Below, piece after piece: positions 1,010-12,879 of a stretch of DNA of 32,223 bases (positions are counted from its first letter, which is position 1; each line of letters opens with the position of its first letter). A model generated the notes under the pieces. It was not told the origin of the DNA. It searched no databases and saw only the letters and a list, made by a program, of their open reading frames with translations. The stretch lies in NCBI GenBank assembly GCA_012718945.1, contig JAAYBL010000033.1, positions 1 through 32,223 on the forward strand. Reading direction: 5' to 3'. The stretch is from Bacteroidales bacterium. Its GTDB lineage: Bacteria; Bacteroidota; Bacteroidia; Bacteroidales; UBA1402. Position numbers and translations under genes: made by a program.

Positions 1010-1412
1010 TGCTCTTCAGTTTTAAAAATTCATCGTATTCACGGATATAATCATTCTCATCGTATTTGGTGGAGGCAAATTCAAGCGCAATGGAGTTGGT
1101 GGAAAAGTTTTCCATCTCCCGCCAAAGCCCCTTTGGGATGTAAAGCCCATAGTAGGAACGGTTTAAGGTGAACGTCTTTTTTTGCCGACCATCATCGATG
1201 GTTACATCAAAAGCGCCAGACAAGGCAATGACAAACTCTTGCGTTTCTCTATAGGCATGACCGCCACGGCATTCGCCACCGGGCACATCATAGAGCCAGT
1301 AGGTGCGTTTGATTTCGAAGGGGATCTGATTATAGTTTTCAGCAAACGAAAGATTGCCCCTTACGTCGATAATCTTGGGAAGGTCTATGAGTTTAACATC
1401 GTTTATTGTCAT
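996..1412 (-). CDS. FdtA/WxcM-like cupin ketoisomerase, first of two tandem copies, active-site His replaced
   Basis: This 138-residue protein is clearly a paralogue of its downstream neighbour and lines up along its whole length (PFEIKRTYWLYDVPGGECRG, GAFDVTIDDG, LNRSYYGLYI, DYIREYDEFL). It keeps the DVRGNL element near residue 16 that is typical of FdtA-type enzymes. The active-site stretch reads RGGHAY, so the second histidine is Tyr54 while His52 is retained. This may change stereochemical outcome or reduce activity. It is the promoter-proximal gene of the fdtA-fdtA-ATP-grasp group. The 93 bp between it and the threonine aldolase stop hold only an imperfect -7-like box (TACTTTCG), so the promoter is uncertain. 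Fold assignment is firm, exact activity is not. Confidence 0.8.
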   Translation of the reverse strand: MTINDVKLIDLPKIIDVRGNLSFAENYNQIPFEIKRTYWLYDVPGGECRGGHAYRETQEFVIALSGAFDVTIDDGRQKKTFTLNRSYYGLYIPKGLWREMENFSTNSIALEFASTKYDENDYIREYDEFLKLKSNGKI

Positions 1413-1505
1413 AAAACAGGTATTTGTTCAAGGTTTCAACTCCAATGACAGTACCCGAAAGTACAAACATTTTCGCAGGTAGCAGCACGCATCTTGCATA
1501 AAAGC

Positions 1506-2627: not shown

Positions 2628-3149
2628 ATGGACGCAGCCACATTTAAGGCACTGTACCTGCCCTTTCACACGAAATTGTACCGTATCGCTTTCCACTTAC
2701 TGGAAAACGGCGACGATGCGGAAGATGTGGTGCAGGAAACGTACGTTAAATTGTGGGAAAAACGCGACGAATTGCCATTGATGCAGAACCCGGAGTCCTT
2801 CTGCGTGGTGATGGTAAAAAACCGCTGCATGGATGTGATGCGCTCCAAGCAATACCAATCGATTTCCTTTGATCCTGTCAAACACGAGCGTTCTTCTCCG
2901 GAAACGCCCTTGGAAACACTGGAAAACAGGGATTCGTTGGAACTGGTTGAACATCTGATGAGGAGTCTGCCAGCTCAGCAACAATTGGTAATGAAACTCA
3001 GGCACATGGATGATTGTTCTTTGGAAGAAATTGAACAGATTACTGGTTTAAGTGCTGTAAATATAAGGGTCCTGCTTTCAAGGGCCAGAAAGTCGATACG
3101 TGAATTATTCAATGCCCAATACCACCACTATGAAAGAAGCTTATTATAA
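2628..3149 (+). CDS. ECF-type RNA polymerase sigma factor
   Basis: This 173-residue protein has the two-domain layout of ECF (sigma-70 group 4) factors. Region 2 (about residues 10-75) contains DDAEDVVQETYVKLWEKRDEL, the RNA-polymerase clamp and -10 binding helix set. Region 4 (about 113-163) contains a helix-turn-helix, SLEEIEQITGLSAVNIRVLLSRARKSI, for -35 contact. Length is normal for the family. The downstream one-TM protein overlaps its 3' end, an arrangement seen for sigma/anti-sigma pairs. A palindromic -7-like element lies about 50 bp upstream. Target genes are not evident from this window, although the DUF4252 gene two places downstream is a natural candidate. Confidence 0.92.
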   Translation: MDAATFKALYLPFHTKLYRIAFHLLENGDDAEDVVQETYVKLWEKRDELPLMQNPESFCVVMVKNRCMDVMRSKQYQSISFDPVKHERSSPETPLETLENRDSLELVEHLMRSLPAQQQLVMKLRHMDDCSLEEIEQITGLSAVNIRVLLSRARKSIRELFNAQYHHYERSLL

Positions 3150-3642
3150 CGCATTATTGGATGCCTTTTACGAGGGCAACACCACGCTGGAGGAGGAAAA
3201 GGCACTGAAAGCCTTCTTCGAATCTGACAGGGTTCCTTTCGAGTTGCTGGAGGAGAAAAAACGGTTTCTGGCATGTTACGAGCCCATAGCTGTCAACGTG
3301 CCTGATGGTTTGCTTGGGCGGTTGGAAGCCTTGATTGATGAGAAAAGTCAACGTCAACCGCGTCCCTTGTTCAAATCTACTTGGATATGGACCACTTCGG
3401 CGGCAGCCAGCCTCTTGTTGTTTTTCTCTATCGGGTTGTCGACATTCAATGCGCCTGCATCAGGCGTTCCTTACACAGATACATTCACCAATCCTACGGA
3501 TGCTGCTCTTGAAGCCGACAGGGCTGTTCAGCTCATAGCCAATAAGTTGAACAGTGGTTACCGACAACTGGATTGTGCCAACGCCCGCATCGAGAAAACA
3601 GAGAAAACCGTCACTGAACAATTAATAAAAATGTCTAAATAA
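3130..3642 (+). CDS. one-TM protein overlapping the sigma gene, possible anti-sigma factor
   Basis: A 170-residue protein starting MKEAYYNALL. It has an acidic N-terminal half (EGNTTLEEEKALKAFF, FELLEEKKRF), one membrane helix at about residues 84-105 (WIWTTSAAASLLLFFSIGL) and a C-terminal part of about 65 residues likely in the periplasm. Two ATGs lie upstream in frame at 3100 and 3112. I chose 3130 because the translated start resembles other proteins of this kind, but no ribosome binding site decides it. It overlaps the sigma factor gene by 20 nt and is 8 bp from the DUF4252 gene. I see no zinc anti-sigma HxxxCxxC motif, so an anti-sigma role rests on position, size and topology only. Confidence 0.7.
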   Translation: MKEAYYNALLDAFYEGNTTLEEEKALKAFFESDRVPFELLEEKKRFLACYEPIAVNVPDGLLGRLEALIDEKSQRQPRPLFKSTWIWTTSAAASLLLFFSIGLSTFNAPASGVPYTDTFTNPTDAALEADRAVQLIANKLNSGYRQLDCANARIEKTEKTVTEQLIKMSK

Positions 3643-3650
3643 GAACCACC

Positions 3651-4130
3651 ATGAATACTAAAAGAATGCTCTTAATAGCCGTGGCTTGCCTGCTTAGCAG
3701 CCTTGTCATGGGGCAAAAGGATCTGATGGAACGTTATGCCAATATTGAGGGGGTCACCACTGTCTACATCTCTAAGTCCATGCTTCAGATGATGCCTAAT
3801 TTGGATATTCACATCAATATGAACACGAAAGACTTGGCGGGGCGTTTATCTGGTATCCTTATTTTAACCACCGAGCGCAAAAACCTGATAACGAACTTGC
3901 GCAAGGATGCACGGGCTTTTTACAACAACAAAGCGTTTGAAGTGCTAATGACAGTGAAAGATGAAGAGTCGCTTGTCAACTTTTACATCCGACGTAAAAA
4001 CGACAAACGGATAGCCGAGATGGTCATGGTCGTTGATGAGGGGGACGAATTCGTGTTAATTCAAATGACGGGAGACATGACCATGGAGGATATCAAAAAG
4101 ATGACCAAAGGTATGTCTAATCAAGATTAA
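3651..4130 (+). CDS. secreted DUF4252 domain protein
   Basis: A 159-residue protein with a clear signal peptide (KRMLLIAVACLLSSLVMG, cleavage expected before Q22). The mature part begins with the YANIEGVTTVYISKSMLQMM segment and ends with VLIQMTGDMTMEDIKKM, both typical of Bacteroidota DUF4252 proteins, whose function is unknown. No lipobox cysteine is present, so it is probably periplasmic rather than lipidated. It is the last gene of the sigma factor operon, 8 bp behind the one-TM protein. Such proteins often sit beside ECF sigma factors, suggesting an envelope-stress role, but that is inference. Confidence 0.8.
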   Translation: MNTKRMLLIAVACLLSSLVMGQKDLMERYANIEGVTTVYISKSMLQMMPNLDIHINMNTKDLAGRLSGILILTTERKNLITNLRKDARAFYNNKAFEVLMTVKDEESLVNFYIRRKNDKRIAEMVMVVDEGDEFVLIQMTGDMTMEDIKKMTKGMSNQD

Positions 4131-4248: not shown

Positions 4249-5649
4249 ATGAAACTTAATAAAATTGTAAACCGCTGGGTAGCCTTAGGCGTCAGTCTCG
4301 TAGGCATTATCTCCCTACTTATTCTCCAGTTTGTATGGCTCACAAACGCCTACGAAGTCTCCGAACAAAACCTTAAAGACAAATGCAAATTGCACCTCAA
4401 TGCCTCCATTGAGAAGGAAATGTTCATGAGGGCAAACAAATCTTCCTTAAAAATAGAAGTTGTTGATGAAGCCGATCATGAAGCCCCTCCACCAGAAAGC
4501 ATTATTCGCAAGGGAAATGTCAATAATATTGACGATTTCAAGAGTAGGATTCAAGACATCTTGTTATTTATGGGTAAAGAGTGCGACATAATTACTCTTG
4601 ATTCAATCTTTTCTTCCAACGTATCCAAAGACGTTGGTTTTATTCCCAGTCACATATTCTACTTAATAAAAGATTCTGCAGATACGCAGTATGAAATAAG
4701 TTTAAGACCAAACAAGGAAAAAGCGGTTCCAAGTATAGCCATTGACAAGAACAGCAAGGCTCTCAAAACCTTGAGGAATCCCATCACTGTCAGATTAAAC
4801 ACCTATCAAACCCTTATTATTGACATCACCGACCCCAGAGCCAATTTTATAAAGAGCGCCAAAAGTTACTTACTGCTCTCCATTGGTTTGTTAATGTTGG
4901 TTACATTAATACTCATCTTTTTAATGAGGGCTACCCTACGAGAGAACCGTTTTGTACGTTTCATCAAAGAATACACCAATGCTCTGACTCACGACCTGAG
5001 GTCACCTCTGAACAGCGTTCATATGGCCTCCAGCATCCTGTATGATGGCACTCTTTCAATAAAACCAGAAGAGAAGAAGGAGTACCTGCGCATTTGCAAA
5101 GAACAGAGCAAAAACATGCTCGACAGTATAGACCGTATCCTAACGGTGGCCAAAGCGGAACATACTGAGCTAGTTGTCACACCAAAAGCCATGCCGCTCC
5201 TACCCTTCCTTCAAGCGCAGAAGACGGCCTTTATTAATGACATGATCCATGAAAAGCCGGTAACAATCAACGTGAGTTGTGAACCGGAAAACCTCGAAAT
5301 ATGCTGGGATAAACCCTTGATGGAAAACGTAGTCAACAATTTGTTGGATAATGCCGTCAAGTATTCGTATGACAGTGTTGAGATAAATATAGAAGCACTA
5401 ATTCAAGGAAAAGACATTCACATTCGATTTAGCGACAACGGAATGGGCGTACCCACCCAAGACCTGGATGCCATCTTCAAATTTTTCCATCAAGGATCCT
5501 TGTTGGAAAGAAAAAGAAAATTCGGTTTTGGTATCGGCCTTAGCTTCTTGAAGAAGGTTGTCGAAGCTCACGACGGTAAGGTATTGGTCGAAAGCCAAGA
5601 GGATGCTGGTGCCACGTTCACGTTAATCTTCCCAATAGTAGCACATTAA
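4249..5649 (+). CDS. membrane sensor histidine kinase, orphan copy at left of the peptide locus
   Basis: A 466-residue sensor kinase with two membrane helices (about residues 11-33 and 204-225) enclosing a periplasmic sensor of about 170 residues with no domain I recognise. The HisKA phospho-acceptor is His248 in TNALTHDLRSPL. The ATPase domain shows the N box ENVVNNLLDNAVKYS, the G1 box DNGMGV and the G2 box FGFGIGLSFLKKVVEAH. It closely resembles the kinase starting at 10883 in N-terminus (LILQ-W-N-Y-ANxSS pattern) and catalytic half, so the two are paralogues. No response regulator adjoins it. It may act on the regulator at 12187. Its stop codon overlaps the stop of the convergent hlyD-like gene. 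Kinase function is firm, signal is unknown. Confidence 0.93.
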   Translation: MKLNKIVNRWVALGVSLVGIISLLILQFVWLTNAYEVSEQNLKDKCKLHLNASIEKEMFMRANKSSLKIEVVDEADHEAPPPESIIRKGNVNNIDDFKSRIQDILLFMGKECDIITLDSIFSSNVSKDVGFIPSHIFYLIKDSADTQYEISLRPNKEKAVPSIAIDKNSKALKTLRNPITVRLNTYQTLIIDITDPRANFIKSAKSYLLLSIGLLMLVTLILIFLMRATLRENRFVRFIKEYTNALTHDLRSPLNSVHMASSILYDGTLSIKPEEKKEYLRICKEQSKNMLDSIDRILTVAKAEHTELVVTPKAMPLLPFLQAQKTAFINDMIHEKPVTINVSCEPENLEICWDKPLMENVVNNLLDNAVKYSYDSVEINIEALIQGKDIHIRFSDNGMGVPTQDLDAIFKFFHQGSLLERKRKFGFGIGLSFLKKVVEAHDGKVLVESQEDAGATFTLIFPIVAH

Positions 5650-5660
5650 AAGTGCTTTTT
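5640..5660 (+). terminator. possible short intrinsic terminator between convergent genes
   Basis: AGCAC (5640-5644) can pair with GTGCT (5652-5656) around a 7-nt loop and is followed by a run of T. The stem is only 5 bp and the convergent stop codons lie in its loop. It could end the left kinase transcript, but the strength is doubtful. Confidence 0.3.
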
Positions 5661-6953
5661 GGAAAAACGGGTTACTGGCATGATGATGCGCTTCAACAGA
5701 CGGACATCTTCAGTAATAATGTCAGCAAAACCAGAAAGGGTTCCTTGGGCTGGTATGGGAAAGGCATAATTGGTTGTCAATCCCTCTGGGAAGACGATTT
5801 CTGCCACGAAGTAACCATCTTTTAACGGCACTTCAGAAAGACTTCTGACCATACCTTTGACAAACCCAAATTCTTTATCGGGGTAGTTATCAAAATGCAC
5901 CTGTACCGTTTGACCAGGGCTAACCTTGCCTGAGCCAGTTGAGGGCACCAACGCTTTACCAATGGGCGTAGAAGCCCCTGTTGGCATAATCGTAAACACA
6001 GTCTCACCTTCAATCACATTTTGGTTCAGGCTCCAATTTCCCATCAAATTGACCGTACCCTTTATTGGGCTACTAATCAAATATGTTTGCTGCCACTCTT
6101 TCAATTGAGCTTTCAATTGCTGAAATGCTTGACTAAGCGACTGTTTGTACTGACTCTCCTGTTCTCTGTCGTCTTGATTTAAATCAAGTACATTTTCCCG
6201 AATTTGAGTCGTCTCCACTTCTGCCTCCTTGATGGATGCATTCAAGGCACTCAGCGATTGCAGTACCTTCAAGCGATTGGTTTTGGATGCATCCAAATCC
6301 TCTTCAGAGACTACCCCTTTGACAAACAGGGCTGAATCCCGTTTATAGGTTGCTTCGGCATTGGTCAACTGAGCTTTCAACAAGCGCCGTTGCTCCATCA
6401 TTTCAAGCAGGTGTAACTTTCTGGCCCTGATTTGATCCTCTTTTAATTGAATTTTTCTTTTGTGGTACTCAACAGTCTGAAAGCGATCGAAATCCTCCAT
6501 GCTAGCCACCATGCGGGTATATGATTCCTGCAAGCTTCCCAATTGTAATACCGTATCTGATAATTGACTGAGACCTAACTTAACTCCTTCAGCATCAATT
6601 TGAAGATTCGTCAGACAGGCATCCAACCACAGCATATCGTTGTAATCAGCCGGATTTTCAATAACGGCCAATGGGGTGTTGGCCTCCACCAATGTCTGAT
6701 TGGTCACCAGCAGAGCCACTAATTTGCCGGTAGACCTGGCTTTTAAAACAGCGGGGGATTGCTCCATGTTTACGGTAACCTCCGCCTTTATAATGTCTGG
6801 GTATTTGAAGAACCAAGCTCCTATTAAAAGAACCAGGACAATCAGGGCAACAACGGTTATTCCCCAACGAATCAGGCCACCAGGTATATTGCGCATGACT
6901 TCCTGCACTTGTTCAGATGGCAAAACCGATTTTTGTACATTGTTCTTATTCAT
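5646..6953 (-). CDS. HlyD-family adaptor of the peptide exporter
   Basis: A 435-residue periplasmic adaptor (membrane fusion protein) that would link the inner-membrane ABC exporter to an outer-membrane channel. It has one N-terminal membrane helix (about residues 31-49, ITVVALIVLVLLIGAWFF). A biotinyl-lipoyl-like half follows (KARSTGKLVALLVTNQTLVEANTPLAVIEN). Then come a long coiled coil (about 95-285) and the returning lipoyl half with the beta-barrel (SPIKGTVNLMG, GQTVQVHFDNYPDKEFGFVKG). The start overlaps the ABC transporter gene by 4 nt, as for a co-translated export pair. Family and partner are clear. No TolC-like gene is in the window, so the outer-membrane partner must be encoded elsewhere. 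Confidence 0.92.
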   Translation of the reverse strand: MNKNNVQKSVLPSEQVQEVMRNIPGGLIRWGITVVALIVLVLLIGAWFFKYPDIIKAEVTVNMEQSPAVLKARSTGKLVALLVTNQTLVEANTPLAVIENPADYNDMLWLDACLTNLQIDAEGVKLGLSQLSDTVLQLGSLQESYTRMVASMEDFDRFQTVEYHKRKIQLKEDQIRARKLHLLEMMEQRRLLKAQLTNAEATYKRDSALFVKGVVSEEDLDASKTNRLKVLQSLSALNASIKEAEVETTQIRENVLDLNQDDREQESQYKQSLSQAFQQLKAQLKEWQQTYLISSPIKGTVNLMGNWSLNQNVIEGETVFTIMPTGASTPIGKALVPSTGSGKVSPGQTVQVHFDNYPDKEFGFVKGMVRSLSEVPLKDGYFVAEIVFPEGLTTNYAFPIPAQGTLSGFADIITEDVRLLKRIIMPVTRFSKKHF

Positions 6954-9145
6954 TGACCCAATTCTAATTGATTGCGTACCAGTTCGTAATAATAGCCTTT
7001 CTTGGCAGTCAGTGTTTGATGGTTACCTTCTTCCACAATACGTCCCTTTTCCAACACAACAATATTGTCAGCCCCTTTTACCGTACTCAATCGATGAGCC
7101 ACGACAACGGCCGTCTTTTGTGTCAGGAAAGCGTTCAATCGTTTCAAGATGACCTGTTCGTTGGTGGCGTCCAGAGCATTGGTAGCTTCATCAAAAAACA
7201 ACATTGAAGGGTTCTTATACACTGCCCTAGCGATTAGGATGCGTTGTTTTTGACCTTGACTCAGCCCCTGCCCATCCATACCAATCCGGGTTGCAAAACC
7301 AAGAGGCAAAGCCTCAACAACATCCATCAAGTTGGCCACGTAGGCTGCCGCTTGAAGACGTTCACTGTCAATGGATTCATCTCCTAAAGCAATATTACCG
7401 GCGATGGTATCGGAAAAAATATAACCATCCTGCAGAACAGAGCCCATGGCCTCGCGCCACAAATGTGGATTTATCATTTCCAATGGGGTGCCACCTATCC
7501 GTATCGATCCCTTGTTCGGGGAATAGAAACCCATAAGGAGTTTCACCAAGGTCGTTTTTCCGCTACCACTTGCTCCAACTATGGCCGTCACTTTACCCGC
7601 AGGAATACGTAAACTAAGATTTTCCAGGACATAATCCCGATCGGCACCATCATAACTGAAAGAGATGTTTTCGACCATCAGGCTTTGATCGATCGGCAGC
7701 ACATCCATACGAATCTGAGCGGGGCTATCTTCATCATCACGCCCATGTACTTCATTCAGGCGTTCCAAACTGATGGAGGCATCTTGATAAGACTGAGCAA
7801 AACCGATGAATTGATCAACCGGGGCGCTCAATTGACCAATTATGTAGGTGATGGCCATCATCATACCCAGTGTAATGTCTCCGGATACGACAGATTGAGC
7901 CGCCAAAAACGTAATCAAGATATTGGTCAATTGGCTAAAAAACACTGAGCCAACCTGCTGCAACTGGCCGATAGCCAGTCCTTTGATACTTATATGGAAT
8001 AAACGGACCTGGATTTGTTCCCATTGCCACCGTTTCTGCCGCTCACAATTGGCCAGTTTAATGTCTGGCATCCCTGAAATAAGTTGAATCAAATTGCCTT
8101 GTTCCTCTGAAGCTTGAGCGAATCGTTTATGATCCAATGCCCTTCTACGCTTCATAAACAACATGACATAGGCCACATAAAGTCCGTTTCCCAACAGAAA
8201 CAGCACAAGAATACTCCATTTATAATAGGCCAGAACGAGAGCGAAAATGAAGAAGTTGATAAAGGAGAAAACGAGGTTTACGGCATTTCCCGTCAGAAAG
8301 GTTTCAATACGTTTATGGTCGCCAATACGTTGCAGCAAATCGCCAATGGATTTTGTGTCAAAAAACCGCAGTGGCAGTTTCATAATCTTGATGAGAAAAT
8401 CGGCGATTAAGGATATTGTAATTCTGGTGTTGACATGCAACATAATCCAGCCACGAATAAACTCTACCGACAACCTTGCCACAAACAAAACGACTTGAGC
8501 AATCAACACCAACTTGATGAATCCCAGGTTGCCCTCAGCAATACCTATATCCACCAACGATTGCGTCAGAAAAGGAAAAATGAGTTGCAAGACGCTGATG
8601 GCAAATAATCCAATCAGCACTTGCGTCAAGTGCTTGTGGTAAGGTTTGAAATACTGTAGTAATGGCTTCAGGCCCCTGCCGGTAGACTGAACCTCTTCTT
8701 CGTAGGATTCTTCAAAATGAGGCCCCGGTTTAAGCAGCAATGCTACACCTTGGTTAGGTGTACTCATCCAGGATTTGGCTAACTCTGTCTCATCATACGT
8801 CAATAAACTGCCAACGGGATCAGCTACATGAATGCGGTATCCTTTGCGGGTTTTCTTCACATAGTAACAGACGACAAAATGCCGCTGACGCCAATGTAAG
8901 ATACAAGGCAAGGGGGCTTGCTCGAGCAATTGTTCCTGAGTAAGTTTTACCCCTGTCGTCTGAAAACCAATGGATTCGGCCGCTTCACTCAACCCCAGCA
9001 TACTACTGCCCGTCCGACTCATGGCCGAACGTTTGCGAATGGTTTCCAGGCTGTAGCGTTTTCCATAATATGCAGCAATCATCCTCAGACAGGTTGGTCC
9101 ACAATCCATCGAGTCCAATTGTTTATACAGTGGAAAACGCTTCAT
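6950..9145 (-). CDS. C39 peptidase-containing ABC exporter (PCAT) for a GG-leader peptide
   Basis: A 731-residue half-transporter that would cut the leader after the double glycine and export the core peptide. The N-terminal peptidase C39 domain (1-130) carries Cys15 (DSMDCGPTC), His89 (RQRHFVVCYY) and Asp109 (HVADPVG), a complete catalytic set. A six-helix membrane domain spans about 160-450. The nucleotide-binding domain has Walker A GASGSGKTT (about 522-530), signature LSQGQKQRILIARA and Walker B SMLFFDEAT. Length is standard for bacteriocin-type PCATs. It lies in the same operon direction as the GG precursor at 10433, 87 bp after the SPASM gene, and may also have its own promoter there. 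Confidence 0.95.
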   Translation of the reverse strand: MKRFPLYKQLDSMDCGPTCLRMIAAYYGKRYSLETIRKRSAMSRTGSSMLGLSEAAESIGFQTTGVKLTQEQLLEQAPLPCILHWRQRHFVVCYYVKKTRKGYRIHVADPVGSLLTYDETELAKSWMSTPNQGVALLLKPGPHFEESYEEEVQSTGRGLKPLLQYFKPYHKHLTQVLIGLFAISVLQLIFPFLTQSLVDIGIAEGNLGFIKLVLIAQVVLFVARLSVEFIRGWIMLHVNTRITISLIADFLIKIMKLPLRFFDTKSIGDLLQRIGDHKRIETFLTGNAVNLVFSFINFFIFALVLAYYKWSILVLFLLGNGLYVAYVMLFMKRRRALDHKRFAQASEEQGNLIQLISGMPDIKLANCERQKRWQWEQIQVRLFHISIKGLAIGQLQQVGSVFFSQLTNILITFLAAQSVVSGDITLGMMMAITYIIGQLSAPVDQFIGFAQSYQDASISLERLNEVHGRDDEDSPAQIRMDVLPIDQSLMVENISFSYDGADRDYVLENLSLRIPAGKVTAIVGASGSGKTTLVKLLMGFYSPNKGSIRIGGTPLEMINPHLWREAMGSVLQDGYIFSDTIAGNIALGDESIDSERLQAAAYVANLMDVVEALPLGFATRIGMDGQGLSQGQKQRILIARAVYKNPSMLFFDEATNALDATNEQVILKRLNAFLTQKTAVVVAHRLSTVKGADNIVVLEKGRIVEEGNHQTLTAKKGYYYELVRNQLELGQ

Positions 9146-9232: not shown

Positions 9233-10225
9233 TTATTTCCTTGGGTCATACCTACATTTTAAGGGCTTCGAATAGGGATTGCCCGTTTCGATGGTATACG
9301 CCCTGCAATCCTGACATACATACCTCAGCTCACACTGGTTGCACACCTCAATTTTATCTTTGGTGATATCCCAGTGCTTTCTAAACGCGTCAGACTGGAC
9401 AACGCTCGTCAGCGTTGTCTCAGCGACGTGTCCATATCGTTCTTTCATCGAGGGGCAGTTTTTCACGTAACCCTCTTTGTCAACGGCAATTTTCTTATAG
9501 AGGCAGTTGTTGAAATACATTGATTCCCAATACAATCTTTGCTCTGCAATACAATACAAATCGCCGGTCACTCCGCATTTATTCTCACTACGAATGATCT
9601 CTGACGTACTGATAAGTACCAACCCGTTGTGTTTGTAAATCACATTCTCGGACGTATTGCTCAACGTCAGTTTGCTTAGCTTGGGAAATTCGTTTTTTAA
9701 AGCCACCAAGGTCTTAACAGAACACTCAACACTTGCTTCAATACACACTTCGACCTTTTCGATGGACGACTTGGCCGTTATCAACAACGCCCGCTTTAAT
9801 TCATCCAAGGGTAACTGGTAATAGTAACGAATCTCCAACGCTTTGCAACCCAACATATCAAGTTCACCAACAATGGGCTCCAACTCATGGGTAGAGGTAG
9901 CGGAAAAATCGACAATAGCATTGTTAATCTGGCTATTATCCTCAATTACAGGAAGCTCAATCAATGAATCATCGATGGGTCTGTGAGAGAAATAACCAAA
10001 CTCATTATGATATAGGTAAGAAATATATACTTCTATGGCGTCTCTCTCCTGTTGCGTCATGCCACTGGTGAGAAGGCCATATGTTCCTGACCTGGAAACA
10101 TCCAGGAAATCATACAGGATTAGTGGAATAGGTTGAATGATATTTCGTTGTAGATCGCATACAACCGCCCGTTTGCAACCCTTCACAGGATGACAGTAGG
10201 AATACAGATTGAAATAACGATCCAT
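9233..10225 (-). CDS. SPASM-domain peptide maturase of grasp-with-spasm type, lacking a radical SAM motif
   Basis: A 330-residue protein resembling the SPASM partner of 'grasp-with-spasm' RiPP systems. Its N-terminus (YFNLYSYCHPVKGCKRAVVC, then DLQRN) matches that family, as does the C-terminus ending in KCRYDP. The C-terminus holds a SPASM-type iron-sulfur cluster motif, CX2CX5CX2C at Cys295, 298, 304 and 307, with Cys324 behind it and more cysteines near 231-263. No CX3CX2C radical SAM motif occurs anywhere, so it probably binds auxiliary clusters without doing classical SAM radical chemistry. The middle is leucine-rich and irregular. It starts 11 nt after the 64-residue ORF. I am fairly sure of the family by memory of its ends; the reaction is unknown. 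Confidence 0.75.
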   Translation of the reverse strand: MDRYFNLYSYCHPVKGCKRAVVCDLQRNIIQPIPLILYDFLDVSRSGTYGLLTSGMTQQERDAIEVYISYLYHNEFGYFSHRPIDDSLIELPVIEDNSQINNAIVDFSATSTHELEPIVGELDMLGCKALEIRYYYQLPLDELKRALLITAKSSIEKVEVCIEASVECSVKTLVALKNEFPKLSKLTLSNTSENVIYKHNGLVLISTSEIIRSENKCGVTGDLYCIAEQRLYWESMYFNNCLYKKIAVDKEGYVKNCPSMKERYGHVAETTLTSVVQSDAFRKHWDITKDKIEVCNQCELRYVCQDCRAYTIETGNPYSKPLKCRYDPRK

Positions 10226-10236
10226 ATCTCAACCAA

Positions 10237-10431
10237 TCACAATTGAACTACCTTGTACGTTCTTGAGGCGTTGATCAACCGTGAAATGCTTTTGTAATAG
10301 ACGGGGCCCTCTTCCTCGACCGATTGGAAACCACACAAAACCATGTAGTTGGCTATTGGCCTACTGAAAACATTCCCGTATAACTGTTCCGCGTTAAGAA
10401 AGCGGTTTATATCGTTGCTTGATTGTCCCAT
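10237..10431 (-). CDS. unrecognised 64-residue protein between precursor and SPASM maturase
   Basis: A 64-residue ORF whose ATG begins one nucleotide after the TAA of the precursor gene and which ends 11 nt before the SPASM gene, so it is very probably translated as part of the operon. It has no signal peptide, membrane helix or GG motif. It contains a hydrophobic middle (SRPIANYMVLCGF), an acidic turn (SVEEEG) and a basic C-terminal third (YYKSISRLINASRTYK). In the related three-gene cassettes this position is taken by an ATP-grasp ligase of about 330 residues. This ORF is far too short for that and shows no ATP-grasp motif. It could be a leader-binding protein, an immunity protein or a remnant. 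I do not recognise it. Confidence 0.6.
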   Translation of the reverse strand: MGQSSNDINRFLNAEQLYGNVFSRPIANYMVLCGFQSVEEEGPVYYKSISRLINASRTYKVVQL

Positions 10432-10432
10432 A

Positions 10433-10597
10433 TTAATTACCTCTTACACCAACTCTAATAATAATTCGACCATCAGGTAAAACCTCATATTCAGCGATGA
10501 GCTCACCACCTGAAATCTTGTTCATTTCAGAACTGGATAATTCGTTAAAACTTTTTAAATCAAATTCATTTCTACTTTGTCCTTTGTTCGTTTTCAT
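10433..10597 (-). CDS. RiPP precursor peptide with double-glycine leader
   Basis: A 54-residue peptide starting MKTNKGQSRNEFDLKSF. The leader (1-31) ends NELSSSEMNKISGG, the ELS...M..I.GG pattern cut by C39 peptidases of ABC exporters. The predicted core is 23 residues, beginning ELIAEYEVLPDGR and ending RVGVRGN. It has no Cys, Ser, Thr, Lys or Trp, but three Glu, one Asp, one Tyr and three Arg. The frame stays open upstream to an ATG at 10699. That extension would come from the repeat array and promoter, so I set the start at 10597, about 20 nt behind the expected transcription start. It is the first gene of the maturation-export operon. Confidence 0.85.
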   Translation of the reverse strand: MKTNKGQSRNEFDLKSFNELSSSEMNKISGGELIAEYEVLPDGRIIIRVGVRGN

Positions 10598-10625: not shown

Positions 10626-10658
10626 CAAATATAGAGCCCATAAGAGCATTGAGCGCAA
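10626..10658 (-). promoter_or_regulatory. promoter of the peptide operon
   Basis: The minus strand has TTG at 10658-10656 (-33) and TATATTTG at 10633-10626 (-7, exact match to TAnnTTTG) with a 22-nt spacer, inside the 17-23 nt known for Bacteroidota. The start point would be near 10619, about 20 nt before the precursor ATG. The decamer array starts 4 bp upstream of the -33 element. Confidence 0.7.
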
Positions 10659-10661
10659 TGA

Positions 10662-10732
10662 AAAACCTTAGAAAACCTAAGCAAAACCTTAGAAAACATG
10701 AGGAAGACTTAGGAAATCTTAGAAAACCTTAG
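10662..10732. repeat. seven near-tandem 10-bp repeats, likely operator array
   Basis: Seven copies of a decamer with consensus AAAACCTTAG (plus strand) begin at 10662, 10672, 10683, 10693, 10703, 10713 and 10723. The intervals are 10, 11, 10, 10, 10 and 10 bp, one helical turn each. Units 1, 3 and 7 are identical; the others are AAAACCTAAG, AAAACATGAG, GAAGACTTAG and GAAATCTTAG. Read in the direction of the peptide operon the unit is CTAAGGTTTT. The array abuts the -33 box of the peptide promoter. OmpR/PhoB-type regulators bind direct repeats at about 10-11 bp periods, and one is encoded at 12187. Confidence 0.85.
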
Positions 10733-10851: not shown

Positions 10852-10859
10852 TATCTTTG
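10852..10859 (+). promoter_or_regulatory. -7 box of the right kinase-regulator operon
   Basis: TATCTTTG matches TAnnTTTG and lies 23 bp before the kinase ATG at 10883. I found no -33 TTTG at the usual distance. Confidence 0.5.
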
Positions 10860-10882: not shown

Positions 10883-12175
10883 ATGCTAACAATCAAAGGG
10901 ATCAGGATTGTTTCAGTGTCAGGATTATTACTTTTATTAATTCTACAATACTCCTGGTTTAGCAACTCCTATAAGATCCTAGAAATTGATATACTGAAGA
11001 AGTGCGACGATGCACTTATAGAAAGTACTGATTTACACGCGTATGAAAGAGCCAATCAAAGCAGTAAAAGCGTTGAATATACTTCAAATGATCATGTTGA
11101 AGAGAGTGTTGTTTATTCAAAAACACTTAGCGGTACAAGCGATTTAAATACTCAATTACAAGCCCTTCTAATTAGTATTGGTCGCCCCACCTCTCTCCCC
11201 CGCCTGGACACTCTGTACGCAGAAAGCCTTAAGAAGAAACTGGGATTTGTACCATCATATAGCATACAATTGGTGAACGATTCGGTCAAGGAAGCGAACG
11301 AATCAAATAAATATGCCCTATATAATAAGGTGGTCGATGATCAATACGTTGAGGTTATATTGACCGCACCACTCAGATCCATCCTGAGACAAGCGCAGTT
11401 TATTGTAATCGTATCCATCTTGCTGGTCGTCATGATTGGCGTCATCTTGATATTGCAACTCAAGAGCATGTTAAGAGAGAATAAGTTTGTCAACTTCATC
11501 AAAGAATATACCCATGCATTGACGCATGAATTGAAAACACCCATTAGCGGTATTTATATGTCATCCTCCATGCTGGCATCGGGCAAGCTTGAAGACAATC
11601 CTGCATCCAGGCAATTGCATTATACAATCTGCAAGGATCAAAGTTCCAAGTTGCTCAAAACGGTGGAAAGAATACTACTGGTAGCAAAGGCCGAACACGC
11701 CGCCATTGTGCCCAACATCGAAGCGGTAGAAATGAATCCATTCATTGAAAAGACAGCCGAAGCGTTTAGAAAAAACAATTACAGACAAAAACAGCTCACA
11801 TTGACGACTAACACCGAACCAACGTCGCTAACATGCAACCTGGATCCTGTTTTGATGGAGAATGTTTTGAGCAATCTGATTGACAACGCCATTAAATACT
11901 CCAACGATCAAGTGGACATCCACATTGATTGTCGGTGTGAAAAACGCTCCCTACTGTTGTCAATCAAAGACAATGGTTTTGGCATGAGTGATAAAGAAAT
12001 TAAAAACATCTTTACCAACTTCGAGCGTGGCGACAAAGTAGAAGGCAAAGGCATTGATGGTTTCGGAATAGGACTCAACTATGTCAACAAAGTTATTACC
12101 GCTCACAAAGGACGCATAACTGTCAAAAGCCAGGAAGGCCTTGGAAGCACATTCATCATCGAGATACCCTTATAA
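10883..12175 (+). CDS. membrane sensor histidine kinase paired with the OmpR-type regulator
   Basis: A 430-residue sensor kinase. Two membrane helices (about residues 8-24 and 173-192) flank a periplasmic sensor of about 145 residues without recognisable domain. The phospho-acceptor is His215 in THALTHELKTPI. The ATPase domain has ENVLSNLIDNAIKYS, KDNGFGMSD and the G2 stretch GFGIGLNYVNKVITAHKG. It is a paralogue of the kinase at 4249. The gene is divergent from the precursor operon across a 285-bp region that holds the decamer array, and the response regulator follows after 11 nt. A role in sensing the exported peptide or its effects is plausible from position only. Confidence 0.94.
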   Translation: MLTIKGIRIVSVSGLLLLLILQYSWFSNSYKILEIDILKKCDDALIESTDLHAYERANQSSKSVEYTSNDHVEESVVYSKTLSGTSDLNTQLQALLISIGRPTSLPRLDTLYAESLKKKLGFVPSYSIQLVNDSVKEANESNKYALYNKVVDDQYVEVILTAPLRSILRQAQFIVIVSILLVVMIGVILILQLKSMLRENKFVNFIKEYTHALTHELKTPISGIYMSSSMLASGKLEDNPASRQLHYTICKDQSSKLLKTVERILLVAKAEHAAIVPNIEAVEMNPFIEKTAEAFRKNNYRQKQLTLTTNTEPTSLTCNLDPVLMENVLSNLIDNAIKYSNDQVDIHIDCRCEKRSLLLSIKDNGFGMSDKEIKNIFTNFERGDKVEGKGIDGFGIGLNYVNKVITAHKGRITVKSQEGLGSTFIIEIPL

Positions 12176-12186
12176 ATAGAACAGAC

Positions 12187-12879
12187 ATGATTAAACTACT
12201 GCTGGTTGAAGACGACGAAGTCCTGGGATTCATCATTAAAGAAGGCATGGAGCTCATTGGTAATTACGACGTTCTATGGGTAAGCAACGGGCAAAAAGGA
12301 ATGGAAGCCTTTGAATCATTTCAGCCGGACATTATAGTTTCCGACATTGAAATGCCAAAAATGTCAGGATTGGAGTTTGTGCAACGAATACGTGAAATCG
12401 ATGAAGATGTGCCCATCATACTCGAGACCTGTGTCTCTTCCAGCAAAACCATTTTGGAAGCCTATTCCCTGGGGATTGACAACTACATCAAAAAGCCTTT
12501 TCTACCTGATGAGTTGGATGCCTACATACAAAGTCTTCTCAAACGTATCCATTTAAAGAATAACACCCGAAAAACCGATTCGAATATCATCTTGTTGGGC
12601 GACATCGAGTTTAACACGAGCCAACAAAGCCTTTCCACGAGCGATGGGATCATCAATCTATCGGGCAGGGAATCCAAACTGCTTGAGCTGCTGTATCAAA
12701 ACATCAACGAAATAGTCCCCAAAGACGTCATTGCAGAAAATATATGGGGAGGAGAAAAGTACTTTACTCAACAAAGACTGGACGTTTTCATTTACACCAT
12801 ACGCAAGTATTTATCGTCTGATAGCAGCGTGCAAATCAGAACGATGCGCAGCTTAGGCTATATGCTCACCATTGAATGA
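12187..12879 (+). CDS. OmpR/PhoB-family response regulator
   Basis: A 230-residue regulator. The receiver domain (1-120) has the acidic pair Glu8-Asp9-Asp10, phospho-acceptor Asp53 in IVSDIEMPKMSG and the conserved lysine in YIKKPF. The DNA-binding domain (about 135-230) is the winged helix of the OmpR/PhoB class, with INLSGRESKLLELLYQN, RLDVFIYTIRKYL and the closing wing IRTMRSLGYML. It is 11 nt behind the kinase gene and surely its partner. The repeat array at 10662-10732 fits the way this class binds DNA and is the best candidate target. It may also serve the orphan kinase at 4249. Confidence 0.94.
   Translation: MIKLLLVEDDEVLGFIIKEGMELIGNYDVLWVSNGQKGMEAFESFQPDIIVSDIEMPKMSGLEFVQRIREIDEDVPIILETCVSSSKTILEAYSLGIDNYIKKPFLPDELDAYIQSLLKRIHLKNNTRKTDSNIILLGDIEFNTSQQSLSTSDGIINLSGRESKLLELLYQNINEIVPKDVIAENIWGGEKYFTQQRLDVFIYTIRKYLSSDSSVQIRTMRSLGYMLTIE

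Follow-up and report, generated by a model that had tools for sequence, protein, structure and literature searches.

Seven short repeats lie beside the promoter of a small double-glycine peptide gene in the stretch of Bacteroidales DNA analysed here (32,223 nucleotides, hereafter the window). The question raised by this locus is whether these repeats form an operator and, if so, which protein reads it and to what effect. The original prediction had pointed to an OmpR/PhoB-class regulator, one of which is encoded nearby. The features of the window used in the analysis are listed below with coordinates and strand.

10662..10732 (-): predicted operator array, seven 10–11 bp units, of the CTAAGGTTTT type on the minus strand, with its promoter-proximal end at 10662
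10662..10692 (-): promoter-proximal three-unit core, CTAAGGTTTT.GCTTAGGTTTT.CTAAGGTTTT, common to all five arrays of the genome and the array of the sister species G003
10634..10661 (-): spacer of 28 nt between array and -7 box, including the TTG read as -33 (10656–10658); length kept, sequence not
10626..10633 (-): -7 box TATATTTG of the peptide promoter, by sequence (consensus TAnnTTTG)
10433..10597 (-): 54-aa double-glycine leader peptide (MKTNKGQSRNEFDLKSFNELSSSEMNKISGG/ELIAEYEVLPDGRIIIRVGVRGN), presumed RiPP precursor, with a weak match to the Mersacidin leader
10237..10431 (-): 64-aa small protein directly upstream of the SPASM gene (G003 homolog 30%, E 3e-6)
9233..10225 (-): SPASM-domain peptide maturase, TIGR04193 (240.7 bits, cut-off 175)
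6950..9145 (-): C39-peptidase ABC exporter
5646..6953 (-): HlyD-type membrane fusion protein
4249..5649 (+): second histidine kinase, a paralog of HK1 (34% by BLASTP), with no response regulator (RR) gene adjoining
10852..10859 (+): -7 box TATCTTTG of the divergent histidine kinase–response regulator (HK-RR) promoter, 119 bp past the array's distal end
10883..12175 (+): sensor histidine kinase HK1 (HisKA, HATPase_c)
12187..12879 (+): OmpR/PhoB-class RR (Response_reg and Trans_reg_C), candidate array-binding protein

The array and the peptide gene cluster

The array consists of AAAACCTTAG at 10662, AAAACCTAAG at 10672, AAAACCTTAG at 10683, AAAACATGAG at 10693, GAAGACTTAG at 10703, GAAATCTTAG at 10713, and AAAACCTTAG at 10723. 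The seven units and their spacing of 10, 11, 10, 10, 10, and 10 bp given in the original prediction match the sequence, as does its statement that three units are identical. The placement of all units on one DNA face holds roughly; at a mean spacing of 10.2 bp, the outermost units drift ~2 bp from a 10.5-bp helix. With a TRF score of 79, this is by far the top tandem array of the window, compared to a best score of 50 for arrays of period 8–13 in 300 first-order Markov randomisations of the window. The natural repeat unit is a 21-bp pair (10 + 11) of AAAACCTTAG and AAAACCTAAGG, with CCTTAG and CCTAAGG units, whose cores are reverse complements, alternating at steps of 10 and then 11 bp. The four other arrays of the genome show this alternation cleanly, and in the window array the sole departure from the 21-bp unit is in the degenerate distal units 4–7, at 10-bp steps. 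Tandem units in one orientation at 10–11 bp steps were found in all arrays.

Past the last unit, the minus strand reads TCA, TTG (10658–10656), a 22-nt spacer, and TATATTTG (10633–10626), the last of which fits TAnnTTTG, the Bacteroidetes -7 consensus (PMC7366714). The promoter elements called in the original prediction are present in the window, but the TTG at -33 varies among the sister promoters, where the array, the 28-nt distance, and the -7 box are kept. The peptide gene, whose product carries an SGG double-glycine motif, heads an operon that continues with the 64-aa protein, the SPASM maturase, the C39 exporter, and the HlyD protein. The maturase exceeds the TIGR04193 cut-off for the grasp-with-SPASM type, and no ATP-grasp ligase was found among the window proteins scanned. 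In the loci described by a published survey (PMC8939145), auxiliary small proteins occupy the position of the 64-aa protein. The orphan kinase at 4249–5649 is a possible extra sensor.

Arrays across the genome and their promoter geometry

Arrays were sought in the window's genome (a 2.96-Mb assembly, 89.8% complete) by a pattern search and then with a sequence-only profile of array plus promoter. Exactly five arrays were found, in the window and on contigs C31, C20, C57, and C258, and the profile matched these five and nothing else in the genome. A search of this genome and of related ones, as the original prediction had suggested, thus produced four more arrays and one in a sister species. 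The number of units per array ranged from 3 to 7 with the sister-species array included, and from 3 to 6 outside the window.

The targets were then examined by array. The window array faces the peptide operon, the C258 array a C10 peptidase with an I69-type propeptide domain, and the C31 array a small secreted protein with a type IX sorting tail, with two more genes behind it. At C20 there was no clear gene, and the target is a candidate small RNA (L003:1357–1455, minus strand) with two strong hairpins; a T run follows the second, which is GC-rich. Its fold z was -4.6, no match to it was found in 40 relatives, and Rfam gave no match in the window or L003. The C57 contig starts before any complete gene on the promoter side; on the opposite side of that array is a gene for an M20-type dipeptidase, so named by its sequence and not by a family search. 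The four other targets have no obvious functional link to the peptide. The counterparts of these targets that were checked in sister species had no arrays, and none was found upstream of the sister-species C10 peptidases. The C20 array (L003:1491–1532) extends over the final codons and the stop of a pectinesterase-like gene, which places part of this operator in coding sequence. In the C10 peptidase gene on C258, a TAG lies in frame within the lipoprotein-like signal peptide (L006:about 1380–1440, minus strand), which reflects either a pseudogene or an assembly error.

The distance to the promoter was measured in the window first and then checked in the other four arrays. In all five, the last unit toward the promoter, CTAAGGTTTN, is followed by exactly 28 nt up to the -7 box, and the same distance separates array end and core promoter in G003. 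The -7 boxes are TATATTTG in the window and C31, TATCTTTG at C20, TATTTTTG at C258, and CATGTTTG at C57; four of the five fit TAnnTTTG, and that of C57 is one base off the consensus. In the window, this consensus has a frequency of 3.6e-4 per position (5.9e-3 with at most one mismatch). The 28-nt spacers had a mean pairwise identity of 31%, versus 28% for shuffles (P about 0.11). Given that the distance is fixed while the spacers are no more alike than shuffles, the geometry is constrained, not copied. A fixed distance that does not depend on sequence is expected from an activator touching RNA polymerase, not from the copying of a repeat, and the inconsistent -33 element among the array promoters would agree with activator dependence. 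On this sequence evidence, the array is almost certainly an operator array, that is, a set of predicted docking sites for a DNA-binding activator. Three features missed in the original prediction provide the strongest evidence: further arrays in the same genome, a composite unit of 21 bp, and a constant spacing of 28 nt.

Two readings without an operator were weighed against this geometry. A REP- or MITE-like family of dispersed or mobile repeats, devoid of regulatory function, could account for several near-identical copies of variable number in one genome and none in relatives, and for a copy lying over the pectinesterase gene stop codon; tandem-repeat MITEs such as BrickBuilt do exist in Bacteroidales (PMC4596501). 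We consider it very improbable, however, as the flanks of the arrays are unrelated and shared flanks or terminal repeats are absent, the distance to the -7 box is constant despite unrelated spacers, and a diverged homolog stands at the orthologous promoter of the sister species. A role for the inverted pairs (CCTTAG/CTAAGG) at the RNA level, as hairpins or terminators, is hardly credible: neighbouring units can form 6-bp stems, but the arrays lie upstream of their promoters, hence outside the predicted transcripts, and the Rfam result for the window and L003 was negative. An identity with the BrickBuilt MITE itself was rejected, its brick AGAYCATARTATCCTCTCRTRTG being unrelated to the array units.

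Sister species and the candidate regulator

Clear orthologs of the RR were found only in the three other genus members compared (66, 60, and 59%). In one of these, G003 (MAG JAJFTH01), the same divergent peptide / HK-RR locus is intact, with identities to the window of 48% for the SPASM protein, 65% for the exporter, 56% for the HK, and 57–59% for the RR. The peptide promoter of G003 reads ATAAGATTTC.ATTTAGATTTT.ACAAGATTTC, 28 nt, and TATTTTTG, an array of three diverged units with the 10/11 phasing and the 28-nt distance of the window's genome. A profile from the window's genome alone ranked this site first in G003, at an unremarkable E-value of 0.35. A degenerate pattern, allowing up to three mismatches, matched it as the sole site in G003; this pattern was written with the site in view, and its uniqueness alone counts. 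The remaining weak profile matches in G001–G003, beyond the orthologous promoter, look like chance, with those inspected lying in or beside unrelated genes. Free variation of the repeats in number and spacing among relatives had been named as evidence that would speak against the original prediction; unit number does vary (3–7), but spacing does not. Precursor peptides diverge, and a search for them in sister species found nothing, with that of G003 identified by position. The assemblies of G001 (C59/C34) and G002 (MAG JAQVXI01; C33/C39) break between the SPASM and HK genes, where the array is expected, so that RR and array are seen together at two loci, the window and G003.

Two further observations concern the G003 locus. 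Its array (L041:7918–7948) overlaps the -33 to -7 region of the divergent HK promoter, whose TATCTTTG is at 7948–7955, which suggests that the same binding event may lead to (negative) autoregulation of the HK promoter. It also carries two tandem HK1-paralogous kinases with no adjoining RR (L041:1–2738). With one such kinase in the window and two in G003, several sensors perhaps feed one RR.

The RR at 12187–12879 is the best candidate for the array regulator. An OmpR/PhoB-class RR is present in the genome and is co-distributed with the arrays, both being assembled at two loci. RR orthologs and arrays are confined to the genus, no arrays having been found in relatives outside it (G030 has one CTTAG-like match, with two mismatches), and the HK/RR pair is divergent from the peptide in both assembled loci. 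RprY-like regulators, on the other hand, are common in relatives without arrays (55 of 60 relatives have them). The SPASM loci of 13 genomes from other genera had no adjoining HK/RR and no matching array, and the published survey assigns OmpR-family regulators specifically to the grasp/SPASM branch of Bacteroidetes (PMC8939145). The exact motif had no match in IMG/VR, nor did GTDB species contigs match a strict 26-base pattern, and the motif was therefore found in no named organism. The OmpR/PhoB-class reading of the original prediction thus stands in part, with an operator array tied to the peptide promoter by conserved geometry and the neighbouring RR as its best candidate reader.

We consider it likely that this RR binds the array, is phosphorylated by HK1, and activates the peptide operon along with the four other promoters. 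The RR (most likely that at 12187–12879) would be phosphorylated by HK1, perhaps also by the orphan HK at 4249, and would bind the 10–11 bp half-sites head to tail on one DNA face. When bound at the three proximal units, which adjoin the -33 region and end 28 nt short of the -7 box, it would contact RNA polymerase, and this contact would switch on the operon for the double-glycine peptide, the SPASM maturase, and the C39 exporter. This RR would also recognise the four further arrays and activate their promoters, and the five arrays probably point to a small regulon run by the neighbouring two-component system. We infer the identity of the regulator and the positive sign of control, as well as any cooperativity and the signal of the kinase.

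The array may instead be a real operator read by another DNA-binding protein encoded elsewhere, with the adjoining HK-RR pair a bystander. Just one of the five arrays shares a contig with the RR gene, none of them belongs to the HK-RR promoter in the window, and the genome has further regulators, including an RprY-type RR. We nevertheless hold this to be unlikely, since RprY-type regulators are widespread among array-less relatives, the array and the RR are both limited to the genus, the array lies between the peptide gene and the HK-RR operon in both assembled loci, and the half-site spacing suits an OmpR/PhoB-class protein (PMC3798270). It is less probable again that the array represses the peptide promoter or the divergent HK promoter and does not activate the former. 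Binding at the overlap in G003 could indeed block the HK promoter, but all five arrays of the window's genome stop upstream of the core promoter, an activator-type position, the -33 element is not conserved at array promoters, and the HK -7 box in the window is 119 bp from the array.

Relation to known systems

In the case of OmpR at ompF/ompC and of PhoB boxes, tandem 10–11 bp half-sites end at the -35 of an activated promoter. The present arrays resemble those of OmpR, PhoB, and TorR in having tandem 10–11 bp half-sites that reach the -35 region of an activated promoter; they differ in half-site sequence, in the Bacteroidetes -7/-33 promoter, and in that the regulator is a predicted one. Arrays of ~11-bp direct repeats are typical of the OmpR/PhoB class (PMC3798270). 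ArcA sites in E. coli have two to five direct repeats at 11 bp, with occupancy that can be switch-like, and multi-repeat OmpR and PhoB sites are cited in the same paper (PMC3798270), while TorR uses a run of tor boxes (PMC9239176). The original prediction overstated its case in placing seven sites far beyond the usual number, given the five repeats of ArcA and the tor-box run; seven is at the upper end and no new kind, and the shortest array of the family has three. Switch-like control was likewise too much to draw from seven sites, as the other arrays of the regulon have 3–6 units and seven are not required. The likeness to ArcA lies in tandem half-sites one helical turn apart, a number that varies per promoter, degenerate extra units, and potential cooperative, switch-like occupancy. 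ArcA differs in having up to five repeats versus seven here and 11-bp steps versus alternating 10/11, and it is global and mostly repressing, whereas the array family here looks like a small activated regulon.

The locus also resembles 'branch 5' ATP-grasp/SPASM loci (PMC8939145), with TIGR04193, an upstream small protein, a double-glycine precursor, a C39 exporter, an HlyD protein, and an OmpR-family regulator; it differs from those described there in that no ATP-grasp gene was recognised among the window genes examined. For a Bacteroidales peptide-cluster two-component system, the analysis provides a half-site, an exact promoter geometry, and a list of five target promoters, and binding and regulon are directly testable with purified protein and short DNA. 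The conservation of array position and helical phase, and not of unit number, offers a useful rule for finding operators of this sort in Bacteroidales.

In the NisRK/nisin system, a leader peptide and its dedicated exporter are encoded with an adjoining HK-RR pair, and repeats precede the peptide promoter. The locus here shares the exported leader peptide, the dedicated exporter, the adjoining HK-RR, and the repeats; it differs in being from Bacteroidales, in having a SPASM maturase in place of lanthipeptide enzymes, and in that the peptide is only a candidate signal. Tentatively, and with considerable doubt, the exported double-glycine peptide could be the signal of HK1 and the orphan paralogous kinases, with the RR driving the peptide operon, the C10 peptidase, the sorting-tail protein, and the small RNA through the phased arrays. 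If true, an uncultured genus of Bacteroidales would have a regulon dedicated to peptide signalling, with autoinduction as in Gram-positive bacteriocins.

Near the peptide cluster, at 2628–4130, the window also contains a Sigma-70 family (ECF-like) gene, a 180-aa ORF behind it (no Pfam match), and a gene for a DUF4252 protein.
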